NCBI GenBank assembly: GCA_025454925.1
Contig: JALONM010000039.1
Coordinates: forward strand, 1-40,121
Length of the DNA stretch: 40,121 bases
Source: Cytophagaceae bacterium
Lineage (GTDB): Bacteria; Bacteroidota; Bacteroidia; Cytophagales; Cytophagaceae
Direction: 5' to 3'
Shown: one piece after another, positions 2,285 through 5,836 of the stretch
Layout of the letters: every line of letters starts with the position of its first letter
Numbering within the stretch: position 1 is the first letter of the stretch
The notes under the pieces: generated by a model
What the model was told of the DNA's origin: nothing
Seen by the model: only the letters and a program-made list of their open reading frames with translations
Database searches by the model: none
Program-made: the position numbers and the translations under genes

Positions 2285-3211
2285 ATGAAAAAATTAGCGA
2301 TACTAGCCGTGTTGGTACTTTTCTTTCAAAACATACAATTGAAAGCACAGCAAGATATGGCCTTTTCTCAGTATATGTTTAATATGCTGATGGTAAATCC
2401 CGCTTACGCTGGCAGCAGGGATGTGATAAGTATGACTTCTTTATACAGGAAACAATGGGTAAACTTGCCAGGAACTCCCAGTATTTTGACTTTCTCAGCC
2501 GATGCCCCAATCGCTGCTGAAAAGATGGGTCTCGGTCTCCAGGTATTTAATGATAGGGTAGGACAATTTACTACAACAGGTATATTCACTTCTGGTGCGT
2601 ACCGTTTACGCTTGAAAAAAGGAACTATGGCCATGGGCTTGCAGGCTGGAATTTATCAGTTTCAGGCAGACTTATCGGGAGTGCAATTATCAAGAGATGC
2701 CACATACGACCAGGCATTTGCTGCCAATGTTCGTAAAACACTTCCAAATTTTGGTACCGGAATATATTATAATACAGATAAGTTTTACATCGGTGCCTCC
2801 TTGCCACACTTGGTAAATAATTCTCTCTTTAAGAAAACGGATACCATTGTTTCAAAAGCCCGTCTAAGCAGACACATTTTTTTAATCGGTGGATATGTAA
2901 TTCCGTTATCATTGGATGTTAAACTAAAAACATCAACCCTCATAAAGTTCGTTCAAGGAGCTCCACTACAAGTGGATTTGAATACGAATCTTTGGTTTTT
3001 TGATAAACTAGCATTAGGAACATCCTACAGAACTTCCGGAGCTTTAGTCGGAATGATCGAAATTCAAGCTACTCCTCAAATTAGAATCGGGTATGCCTAC
3101 GATGGAAATTTAGGAAAATCCAGAACTCATTTACGCGGCTCTCATGAGTTCATGCTTCGTTATGAATTCGGATATATCAAAACGAAAATGCTCAGTCCAC
3201 GTTACTTCTAA
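2285..3211 (+). CDS. PorP/SprF family type IX secretion outer-membrane protein
   Basis: This 308-residue protein has a signal peptide (MKKLAILAVLVLFFQN, cleaved near LKAQ) followed by the family hallmark QDMAFSQYMFNMLMVNPAYAG. The rest alternates like a beta barrel (short strands, Gly and aromatic residues) and ends in YEFGYIKTK. Length and features fit the PorP/SprF family (TIGR03519), outer-membrane proteins that work with individual type B (CHU_C) substrates. It begins 11 nt after the adhesin stop, so the two are surely co-transcribed. It probably helps present or anchor that adhesin. The family is certain; the pairing is inferred from position. Confidence 0.93.
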   Translation: MKKLAILAVLVLFFQNIQLKAQQDMAFSQYMFNMLMVNPAYAGSRDVISMTSLYRKQWVNLPGTPSILTFSADAPIAAEKMGLGLQVFNDRVGQFTTTGIFTSGAYRLRLKKGTMAMGLQAGIYQFQADLSGVQLSRDATYDQAFAANVRKTLPNFGTGIYYNTDKFYIGASLPHLVNNSLFKKTDTIVSKARLSRHIFLIGGYVIPLSLDVKLKTSTLIKFVQGAPLQVDLNTNLWFFDKLALGTSYRTSGALVGMIEIQATPQIRIGYAYDGNLGKSRTHLRGSHEFMLRYEFGYIKTKMLSPRYF

Positions 3212-3233: not shown

Positions 3234-3265
3234 AAAAGGCATCTTTCAAAGATGTCTTTTTTATT
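3234..3265 (+). terminator. Rho-independent terminator after the PorP/SprF gene
   Basis: An 11-bp stem (one G-U pair) with a three-base loop, AAAGGCATCTT/UCA/AAGATGTCTTT, is followed by a T run. It starts 23 nt after the stop at 3211. Confidence 0.85.
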
Positions 3266-3362
3266 TTAACTGAACTACATTACAATCAGTTATGGCTGCG
3301 ATCACTTCTTTGATTTGATTATTACCGATAGTCGATTCGTTACATTGGTAAATAGGCACTCT

Positions 3363-3518
3363 GGGCGTGTCCCACGCGGCCTGTCGGCCTCTTCGGGCCG
3401 GGCTATTCGCGTGTACTCCTCGTTCTTGGCATGGCATGGCGCTCGCGGCGCCATGCCATGCCACTCCCTGTGGGGTACACGCTGCTATCCCTTACGCCTG
3501 CCGGCGCGGAGCGCCGGC
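3363..3518. repeat. GC-rich, highly folded intergenic element (REP/MITE-like or structured RNA)
   Basis: This GC-rich island sits in AT-rich intergenic DNA. Nested pairings are visible. Outer GGCGT 3364-3368 pairs with ACGCC 3494-3498. GGG 3400-3402 pairs with CCC 3489-3491. GCGTGTAC 3409-3416 pairs with GTACACGC 3475-3482, and a perfect 16-bp stem 3427-3442/3448-3463 has loop TCGCG. A further hairpin follows at 3500-3507/3511-3518 with loop GGA, and CGGCC/GGCCG pair at 3385-3389/3396-3400. From memory, the motif order GGGCGT, CGGGCTATTCGC, hairpin, GCTGCTATCCCT-ACGC recurs in Bacteroidota genomes. That is unverified. No convincing gene covers it. Confidence 0.7.
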
Positions 3519-3802
3519 ACCCATCTAGGTATACTTGATGAGTTCTTGTAATCTTAGTGAAATTTTTATCCTTGGAGGTTTAACAACCAAACTGAGAACT
3601 GGAGCCAATTAATTTATCCTGCTTTTCTCCATAGAAGCGAAGCGCAATATTGAGAAAGTTCCTGGATCGTAGATCCATGGCCGGTAATCCCGACTTAGAA
3701 AATCATGGGCTTAGAAACGAATTTCTTTTATTCGATTCCATCTGAAGCCTTGATTGTATTAGTCGTTTTTCAATAGAGGAATTTCTATTGAAAAATTAGG
3801 GT
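3519..3802. other. Intergenic DNA without a recognisable gene
   Basis: I see no gene here. It holds an 11-base word CCTTGGAGGTT at 3570-3580 that is also the core of the large palindrome at 39388-39444. It also holds an 11-bp inverted repeat TTTTTCAATAG/CTATTGAAAAA (3766-3776 and 3785-3795), close to the 3' end of the minus-strand gene. The orientation of its T and A tracts does not fit a canonical terminator. Confidence 0.5.
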
Positions 3803-5836
3803 TTAATGAACCACAAAAGACTGAGTAGTTTGATACATTTGTTTTCTGCTTTTTAGTTTTATAAAATATATCCCGTGTTCATATTGTTCACATGGAATTT
3901 CAACTTCATTCAATCCAGGTTGCAGCATAATTTCTTCTCGAAACATGGCTTGTCCCATCGCATTTAATATTTCCAGTTCAATACGTTCTTCAGAGTCCGC
4001 CGATAGTCGCAGAATAGCTCTTTCCGGGGCGGGGTTAGGGGATAAGGATAGGATAGAAAAGGACGGTTTGTTTTTTAAATGAATAGTATTCGAGTAATAA
4101 TATCTGCCGTCCAAATCAATTTGTGCCAGGCGATAGAAATAACTTTTTTTCAGAGGATTTGCATCCAGGTGTTGATAATGAATGGTTTGGTCGGAATGTT
4201 GGGCCGCTTTCATGGAATGGATGGTTGAAAAAAGAATTCCATCTTCCGATCGCTGTACCTGAAACGTTTCGCTGTTAATTTCGAAAGTGGTAGACCATCT
4301 CAGCATATTTCCTTCGTGTTGAATTTCACCCACCAGTCCCGATAAATCAACTGGTAAAGGCGTACAGTCCAGGCTGGCACCATTGGAAAGATTCCAGTTA
4401 AAATTAAAGGCAGTGGAAGAGATGCTGTAATTATTGATGTACAGAATGAATAATTCTCCCGCATTGGCATTCAATTCTTCTACCCATTTGTCTCCCGAGG
4501 CCGGTTCGCTGGCATCGGTAGCCCCATTACCCAGTCCAGTCAATCCAAATAATTCTGAGTATGAACACCGCACCGGGGTATGAAAGGTATTCGCAGGACA
4601 TTGCATGGAACTATACGGTCCCCAAATAGCAAAATCATAATCAACACTGGCGCCCGGATCTATCGTAAAACCGATAGTGCCGGAAGTATTTAATCGGAAG
4701 TAAAACCAATTGGCCTGATCCTCTCCTGTAACAGCGCAGGGGATCCATTCACTAAACAATTCATGAATTCCTTCTCCTGTGTTGTTGCCTGTAAAGGCAT
4801 TGTCCGAACAAATAAGTGTGGAATTATAACAATTCCGATTATCGGTAAATACTGGCGGTGTCGCTGCAGCGCCGCAAGAAATTTGTCCAATCCATCCTGC
4901 ATTGTTATCATTGTTCCAATCAGAAACAAATTTAAGCGTCAGGCAACCGCTAGGATTATTTGAAGTAGCGGTAATGGTGGCTGGAATAGAATTTCCATTG
5001 TAGCCTGCCAGCAACGAAGCATTGGTAGAGGTTCCATCGTAAATAAAAAGGAAATCCCTTCTTCCTTCTAAATTAAATGAGGAAAAACTGATGGATACAT
5101 AACTTCCGGGAGTAGATGGTTGAATGGTCAGCACAGAAGTTAAATTGTCGGAATAATTATTGGTTATGCCAGGATCATAAAAACTAGAATTGCAGGTACT
5201 CACCGTCGAACTTCCGGAAGAAGGCATTATAATAGTTGGGGAATAAGAGAGTAGCACATTATCAATTGCCGCAGGCGGTGCAGATCCGGTATTGTTATCG
5301 TTTTGCCAAGAAAATACAAGTCGTGCTGAACTGCCAGCCAAATTCGAATTAAGATAAAAGGATGTATTTGCCCACCCTGTTGATCCTGAATATTCGGTCG
5401 CACCAATTTGTCCTGATGTTAATGCTACTCCGGCTGCAGGAGTGGTAGTCGTAGGGATTAAAAACACTTTCAGATTATCGTAACCGGGTTCACCATTGCT
5501 GATCCAGTCGAAACTTAATTGAAAAATATGCTGCCCTGCCGGAAACGTAACATCACGCCAAAGGTGGGTTACTGAGGCAACATTCGTATTGTAGCTATGG
5601 GCAGTTGATCCCGTATTTAATCGAATGTAGGCTGAGTGGGTTGTGTTGCCACTGGCTAGCGTATTGCACGTCCAACGGTTTGTAGTGGGCAGGGCAGAGC
5701 TCCAACCATTAGCGGCTAACGAATTGGTTCCTGAAAACTCAAAATCACCTCCGTTTGCAGTTCCAATTAGAAATGTTTGAGCACTTGCTTGCAGATTCAT
5801 GACCACAAGCGAAACAACAAGAAATAACTTTCTCAT
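3803..5836 (-). CDS. Secreted CUB-like protein with type A T9SS sorting tail
   Basis: I chose the ATG at 5836 (677 residues) because it gives a clean signal peptide (MRKLFLVVSLVVMNLQASAQ). In-frame starts at 5848 and 5893 exist but put extra residues before it. The N-terminal third is a beta-sandwich-like region. A CUB-like domain follows (from about YDPGITNNYSDN to GWIGQISC, with FLFIYDG), then a region with DYDFAIWGPY typical of Bacteroidota exoproteins. After LPVDL comes a fibronectin-like segment (SETFQVQRSEDG, YYYSNTI) and a final Por-secretion tail (LSPNPAPERAIL, LNAMGQAMF, GIYFIKLKS). It is predicted to be exported by the type IX system and surface-bound or released. No catalytic motif is visible. 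It stands alone between intergenic regions. Confidence 0.85.
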   Translation of the reverse strand: MRKLFLVVSLVVMNLQASAQTFLIGTANGGDFEFSGTNSLAANGWSSALPTTNRWTCNTLASGNTTHSAYIRLNTGSTAHSYNTNVASVTHLWRDVTFPAGQHIFQLSFDWISNGEPGYDNLKVFLIPTTTTPAAGVALTSGQIGATEYSGSTGWANTSFYLNSNLAGSSARLVFSWQNDNNTGSAPPAAIDNVLLSYSPTIIMPSSGSSTVSTCNSSFYDPGITNNYSDNLTSVLTIQPSTPGSYVSISFSSFNLEGRRDFLFIYDGTSTNASLLAGYNGNSIPATITATSNNPSGCLTLKFVSDWNNDNNAGWIGQISCGAAATPPVFTDNRNCYNSTLICSDNAFTGNNTGEGIHELFSEWIPCAVTGEDQANWFYFRLNTSGTIGFTIDPGASVDYDFAIWGPYSSMQCPANTFHTPVRCSYSELFGLTGLGNGATDASEPASGDKWVEELNANAGELFILYINNYSISSTAFNFNWNLSNGASLDCTPLPVDLSGLVGEIQHEGNMLRWSTTFEINSETFQVQRSEDGILFSTIHSMKAAQHSDQTIHYQHLDANPLKKSYFYRLAQIDLDGRYYYSNTIHLKNKPSFSILSLSPNPAPERAILRLSADSEERIELEILNAMGQAMFREEIMLQPGLNEVEIPCEQYEHGIYFIKLKSRKQMYQTTQSFVVH

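Follow-up and report, generated by a model that had tools for sequence, protein, structure and literature searches.

What lies at the locus?

The window that we analysed, the whole stretch of 40,121 nucleotides from a Cytophagaceae bacterium, contains between its genes a GC-rich and strongly folding piece of DNA, some 100 bp downstream of a hairpin that resembles a terminator. A first-pass annotation, made from the letters alone, had described a deeply nested fold in intergenic DNA downstream of a terminator, and every feature that it named is found in its place, including the hairpin and T run at 3234-3260. Folded as RNA, 3340-3540 reaches -104.8 kcal/mol as against -78.1 +/- 4.3 in dinucleotide shuffles (z -6.24), none of the 200 shuffles being as good. 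We name the element by its plus strand (TGGGCGTG...ACGCC), and its parts and immediate surroundings are these:

3234..3260, + strand: terminator-like hairpin with a T run, behind the upstream open reading frame at 2285-3211; outside the element
3362..3498, + strand: dispersed element, a long-armed type-A copy (from BLAST matches, the 3' motif and aligned copies)
3364..3368, + strand: P1 closing stem, 5' arm GGCGT, pairing with 3494-3498 (from the sequence)
3371..3397, + strand: P2 arm (hairpin 1), base CCC..GGG, inner GGCC/GGCC
3400..3405, + strand: P3 base, 5' arm GGGCTA (from covariation helix 4 and the minus-strand fold of the window copy)
3411..3480, + strand: P3 distal arm (hairpin 2), GTGTACTCC/GGGGTACAC, a module that varies between copies
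3486..3491, + strand: P3 base, 3' arm TATCCC (same basis as its 5' arm)
3494..3498, + strand: P1 closing stem, 3' arm ACGCC, pairing with 3364-3368 (from the sequence)
3499..3519, + strand: optional hairpin 3, TGCCGGCGC/GCGCCGGCA, arms 3499-3507/3511-3519; outside the element proper

Pyrimidine positions at 3370 and 3398 border the P2 arm, whose loop in the window copy is TGTC and not of the C(TNC)G type discussed below. Within the P3 base, GGG pairs with CCC at 3489-3491 and TA with TA at 3486-3487, which leaves a C.T and a T.C mismatch, and the internal loop sets CTATTC (3403-3408) opposite TGCTAT (within 3482-3488), with CTAT on both sides. The tip of the distal arm is a perfect 16-bp hairpin (arms 3427-3442/3448-3463). 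The window matches no Rfam family at the gathering score; with a relaxed threshold, the best sub-threshold match, at 3300-3560, has an E value of 0.11.

How often does it occur in its own genome?

A BLAST search with 3355-3525 finds at least 32 matches in the same genome (among the best 40 of 81 candidates, which were scored), and the 3' end motif CTATCCCTCACGC, allowing one mismatch at most, occurs at 89 + 81 = 170 places in 4.52 Mb, whereas the same motif read backwards occurs at 1 + 1. The first-pass annotation had held that a single copy lacking covariation and relatives would amount to a local oddity; copies, covariation and relatives are all present, and the island is one copy of a gene-free dispersed element.

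The element measures about 85-160 bp, with the outline TTT-GGGCGTG...CTCACGC-AA, in which the TTT to the left and the AA to the right are common in all three of our sets of copies. We excised 78 distinct full copies from stretches of the own genome, 29 of them of type A, which resembles the window copy and is marked by GGGCTATNCGC, and 49 of type B, marked by GGGCTATCGC. Type-B copies share longer flanks (...CAAACTCAAGACTTTATTTT on the left, AAAACCAGCCATGT... on the right), so the moving unit of that subfamily may exceed the fold; the window copy differs in its flanks and bears the extra hairpin at 3499-3519, a counterpart of which (a perfect hairpin of at least 7 bp, loop 3-5, at most 32 bases behind the element) follows 9 of the 29 type-A copies and 1 of the 49 of type B. 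Most copies are intergenic, 1 of 52 lying inside a called open reading frame in 0.8 Mb of the own genome and 14 of 133 in the named genomes. Insertion behind terminators, striking by eye, was rejected as a rule by counts against random positions (directly adjacent terminators at 6/130 copies vs 12/1300 random positions, 2/77 vs 6/770 and 0/83 vs 5/830).

Beside the element in the window lies a member of a second repeat family (3618-3815, about 190 bp, GCTTTTCTCCATAGAAGCG...CATGGATC..GATCCATGG...), which occurs at 42 or more places in the own genome; members other than this one are 79-93% identical (best 40 of 245 candidates scored). Of the 42, 20 are found no more than 350 bp from an element end (127 ends being listed) where about one would be expected, an expectation calculated over the whole genome, so that intergenic clustering is included in the excess. 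In two Flavobacterium loci (L100, L152), the element likewise adjoins on its right another repeat-like stretch, TTGTCATTTCGACG..GGAGAAATC....

Is the fold conserved?

The first-pass annotation had called for a test of covarying base pairs, and the answer is clear. Over 95 aligned copies from named genomes, 96.9% of cells pair, and cells in which both sides have changed and still pair number 226, as against 68.1 +/- 5.8 in shuffles, none of 500 of which reaches that count; versions of the structure slid along the alignment give at most 67. P1 is paired in 99.2% of its cells, its inner pair being G-C in 48 and T-A in 45 of the 95 copies. Because the alignment had been fitted to the model and part of P3 and of the 3' end had been fixed by the search pattern, the inner P1 pair, P2 and the distal P3 arm provide the fairer tests; these vary most, and yet they pair. 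The copies thus share a three-way junction held by compensatory change. A C.C combination at the two pyrimidine positions is absent from 47 own copies, and its avoidance as a general rule was rejected, since 8 of 141 minimal hairpins have it.

How far does the element spread?

A structure from RNAalifold gave a first model (R1) few pairs and was replaced by a hand-written one, from which, with 16 own copies, we built covariance model R2. This model, the kind of search of related genomes that had been proposed, finds matches in 15 of the 59 relatives' genomes (a number that includes the own), with 44-52 matches in each of four species of one genus (the best 65 candidates per genome, at most, being scored). 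Across a sample of the phylum at least 36 of 296 genomes match, own included, a lower bound because 13 candidates were scored per genome and the filters were strict. A gapped pattern run over species genomes gives at least 120 stretches, and among the matches listed 79 of 80 are Bacteroidota by record name (Flavobacterium, Aquimarina, Pedobacter, Mucilaginibacter, Niabella, Algoriphagus, Saprospiraceae, Tannerellaceae, Alkaliflexus and others), the remaining one being from Fibrobacterales; gapped exact patterns on complete chromosomes gave too few matches for use. The earlier suggestion of a REP/BIME-like dispersed element of Bacteroidota is thus borne out, and what we have is a non-autonomous, non-coding, REP/MITE-like element, phylum-wide in Bacteroidota, with a branched fold.

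Plasmids carry it too. With a Bacteroides copy as query 83 plasmid records match, all with hosts in Bacteroides, Phocaeicola, Parabacteroides or Butyricimonas, and 48 of them are typed conjugative; a Flavobacterium copy matches 79 plasmid records and the window copy none. Among phages, the Bacteroides copy matches two unannotated records and the Flavobacterium copy none, while the gapped pattern matches four viral contigs. Of the 60 plasmid records listed, 20 show the match in contact with a recombinase family gene (e.g. L365 4414-5087), and these 20 may descend from one ancestor. On plasmid p5482, one copy (L363 6001-6087) lies some 720 bp upstream of a gene for an ArdC-like single-stranded-DNA-binding protein and overlaps a small open reading frame of the opposite strand; a second p5482 copy lies near 18.65 kb (L366 18662).

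Do copies come and go?

Nine joined pairs of flanks were searched for in 150 genomes of one genus. At the site of one Flavobacterium copy (L100) the element is present in G428, with flanks 100% identical, and, judged by the spacing of flank matches together with an element match there, in G283 and G091; it is missing from G439, G410, G232 and G442, and also from G460, G361 and G396, where other sequence stands. What is missing at the empty site comprises the element together with some 30 bases of 3' tail. The flanks, 74-83% identical over the joined query, are too diverged for a clear target duplication to be seen, and the filled and empty states fit gain or loss alike. In genus g5, flanks were too diverged for any empty site to be resolved.

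At another Flavobacterium site, behind one gene, 11 of the 13 loci with the left flank hold the element, in some cases degraded or altered, and two (L325, L329) are without it. Here the distal arm reads CAAGTCC..GGGCTTT in some species and ATATCTTTT..AAAAGGAT in L323, L327 and L331, whose left flanks are 91-94% and right flanks 77-87% identical to those of L172: arms differ between orthologous copies while the junction stays. In Algoriphagus (L115, L145, L165, L167) and in one stretch of the own genome, the element adjoins the same gene family, which we take to be ileS-like, and the four Algoriphagus copies carry different arms.

Which strand folds?

With DNA parameters, 274 of 292 copies (74/78, 75/83 and 125/131) fold more stably as the minus strand, and with RNA parameters 67/78, 61/83 and 87/131 do so. 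P1 and the P3 base occur together in the predicted fold of 164 minus and 66 plus strands of the 292 with DNA parameters, and of 125 and 55 with RNA parameters. Seen from the minus strand, moreover, the C.T and T.C mismatches, which are conserved, turn into G.A and A.G. A C-G pair closes a TNC loop in 100 of 141 minimal P2 hairpins (a number that includes orthologous copies) and in 25 of 65 three-base loops of own copies; read on the minus strand this is c(GNA)g, a loop that is very stable in DNA, but on the plus strand it is also the RNA UNCG tetraloop. Counting against the minus strand, and favouring folding of the plus strand, is an excess of G.T over A.C on the latter, 76 vs 12, although 38 of the 76 come from one pair (38 vs 12 remain without it) and G.U is rewarded by the model to which the alignment was fitted.

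The orientation of copies may be related to replication. In 4-kb windows, 162 of 258 copies (162:96, p 5e-5) have the C-rich strand as their plus strand, and hence the G-rich one, which is commonly the lagging-strand template, as their minus strand. The bias is strongest beside the element, at 1.5 kb (35:17, 54:27 and 93:38), and weaker at 8 kb (own 33:19, g5 45:35), and such fading with window size means that gene context may contribute; in the own genome, 34 of 48 copies have a right-hand gene that points at them, which may cause part of the bias. A clear two-arc order of strands is seen in two of six complete chromosomes, G396 and G460, with 2 and 14 of 300 permutations as good, as against 33 in G232, 52 in G410, 178 in G487 and 283 in G454. 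Agreement with the sampled skew holds for 11 of 15 copies in G396 (7/7 on the positive arc, 4/8 on the negative) and for 9 of 14 in G460. Taken together, the minus-strand fold and the G-rich minus strand suggest a folded single-stranded DNA, on evidence that is mixed.

What might move the element?

The reading that we prefer, tentatively and at a probability of about 0.45, is that of a REP/MITE-like element whose minus strand (TTGCGTGAGGGATAG...) is recognised as folded single-stranded DNA and moved in trans by a putative enzyme. The folded minus strand would be exposed mainly on the lagging-strand template, where a putative nuclease or transposase acting on single-stranded DNA, with HUH/Y1 as the most plausible class, would cut and paste it; the ends and the junction would be kept because the enzyme reads them, and arms might lengthen or be swapped by recombination or template switching between copies. 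A bolder proposal, which we regard as doubtful, is a single-stranded-DNA system found across Bacteroidota, which would form a third class next to REP/RAYT and IS200/IS605 and might be linked to conjugation or lagging-strand replication, and in which a minus-strand three-way junction would be read in trans by a putative enzyme and arms exchanged freely; that this junction would be stabilised by its conserved G.A mismatches, and often by c(GNA)g loops, is just as doubtful.

Where the first-pass annotation had suggested mobilisation by a RAYT-type transposase, the counts give no support. On this account the element would be a classical RAYT-mobilised REP/REPIN, namely the 'atypical secondary structure' beside subclass 2.6 TnpA-REP genes of Bacteroidetes, and PMC6006769 does report atypical structures that lack GT[AG]G, flank such genes and have copies elsewhere. 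RAYT genes are present in 46 of the 59 relatives' genomes, and all 15 element-bearing relatives have a RAYT match (Fisher p 0.013), an association that is not significant outside the own family (p 0.19), while the copy numbers of element and RAYT give a Spearman coefficient of 0.15 (p 0.59). Among 32 RAYT neighbourhoods (30 from relatives, 2 own) a single one has a clear element, the own fragment L022 with a copy about 260 bp away; a weak match (E 0.18) stands at the L084 locus, and none of the 12 relatives' loci from element-bearing genomes has the element. In four element-rich relatives, by the listed coordinates of RAYT matches and of elements, 1 of 25 RAYT matches (in G014, at 1.1 kb) has an element within 1.5 kb where 0.42 are expected, and 2 of 25 within 3 kb where 0.78 are, so that adjacency, in what is a modest test, is not above chance. 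Three RAYT-centred stretches of 17.7-20 kb contain no element, RAYT flanks examined by eye show other, short palindromes, and the GT[AG]G foot is absent from the element's ends, the reverse strand of which begins TTGCGTGAGGG or GCGTTAGGG. The two own Y1 reading frames, of 100 and 147 aa, score over the Pfam cut-off but under that of NCBIfam. We consider RAYT an unlikely mobiliser and have rejected it as our explanation.

Two side observations concern these own genes. In L022 (G000:C54, 19-641) the RAYT-like reading frame stops right at a second-repeat copy (C54:452-641), as though truncated by it, and in L021 (G000:C61, 880-1460) the 100-aa RAYT-like frame has GTTGATGC..GCATCAAC palindromes on both sides, looking, from the sequence, like a REP family of its own.

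Other explanations deserve consideration. That the element is a MITE mobilised via its ends by a DDE transposase fits a non-coding, dispersed unit whose ends, TTT-GGGCGTG and CACGC-AA, are conserved in three sets and partly complementary; the complementarity, however, is short (about 5-7 bp) and imperfect, the one site examined in detail has no clear target duplication, and no parent transposon was found. Among 877 open reading frames within 1.2 kb of 279 element places, the 25 largest clusters, inspected by eye, include no recognisable transposase or mobiliser, and a gene recurring beside copies was rejected as a candidate, the top two clusters reaching only five loci each. Nor did 10 orphan 5' and 32 orphan 3' modules yield a long autonomous form, with the two modules 0.2-6 kb apart. 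We therefore hold a DDE transposase to be decidedly improbable, if less so than the single-strand site discussed below. A repeated structured RNA, whether a cis element or a small RNA, would account for the covariation, the plus-strand excess of G.T, the UNCG-like loops and the long retention at orthologous sites. Against it, copies show no settled orientation to genes, as 32 of 101 flanking pairs in the named genomes run in the element's direction and 30 in the opposite one (22 convergent, 17 divergent), the figures for the own genome being 8 and 16 of 48 (18 convergent, 6 divergent); furthermore, no Rfam family matches, the junction is predicted mainly on the minus strand, and one site is both filled and empty. 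An RNA is thus quite unlikely, though a shade more plausible than the DDE transposase. Finally, a host or plasmid single-strand site, such as a single-stranded-DNA promoter or priming site, might have spread, as the many plasmid records of Bacteroides and its relatives, over half of them typed conjugative, the p5482 copy upstream of the ArdC-like gene and the minus-strand fold could suggest; yet a third of the plasmid matches listed abut a recombinase family gene and could go back to a single ancestor, and the chromosomal copies examined stand outside any such context, which makes this the least probable explanation.

How does it compare with known systems?

The element stands close to several familiar families. 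Like REP/REPIN sequences with their RAYT (TnpA-REP) partners it is intergenic, dispersed, present in more than 100 copies and hairpin-forming, with a proposed single-stranded-DNA substrate; REPs, however, are 20-40 bp hairpins with a GT[AG]G foot, whereas the element is a three-way junction of 85-160 bp that lacks the foot and shows no excess beside the RAYT genes examined here. BOX, RUP, ERIC and Correia elements are non-coding, modular or palindromic intergenic repeats of about 100 bp, thought to move in trans, and our element is likewise about 100 bp, non-coding and MITE-like, but differs from them in its phylum-wide spread, in the compensatory change of its fold and in having no known parent transposon. 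The ends of IS200/IS605 carry subterminal hairpins on one strand and show a lagging-strand preference; the element resembles them in the former respect, may do so in the latter, and differs in lacking a transposase gene and a known insertion tetranucleotide.

Also close by description are the 'atypical secondary structures' reported to flank RAYT subclass 2.6 / group 5 genes of Bacteroidetes (PMC6006769), which likewise lack GT[AG]G and have copies elsewhere in the genome. The element may be the same thing, although its position, with such flanking not seen here, gives no support. GTAG- and CGTC-tagged repeats, the latter reported in Bacteroidetes, are palindromic and dispersed too (PMC3733652, in part), and neither tag stands at the element's ends. 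REPs have been counted in Flavobacterium genomes (PMC12306157, in part), and the available portions of these two papers and of PMC2864571 contain no description of the element. Consensus stretches of the element, used as text, were absent from any related paper in the literature searched, and the titles and abstract openings listed there gave no description of it.

Why does it matter?

The element is present in many genomes of a major phylum, and at about 170 places in one of them. With a covariance model, hundreds of copies and a site that is filled in some genomes and empty in others, whether an enzyme reads a branched fold of single-stranded DNA becomes a testable question. The orthologous copies that have been kept for long could, for their part, mean a function for the host, and if that were true, the element would add a new type of intergenic signal to those of Bacteroidota.
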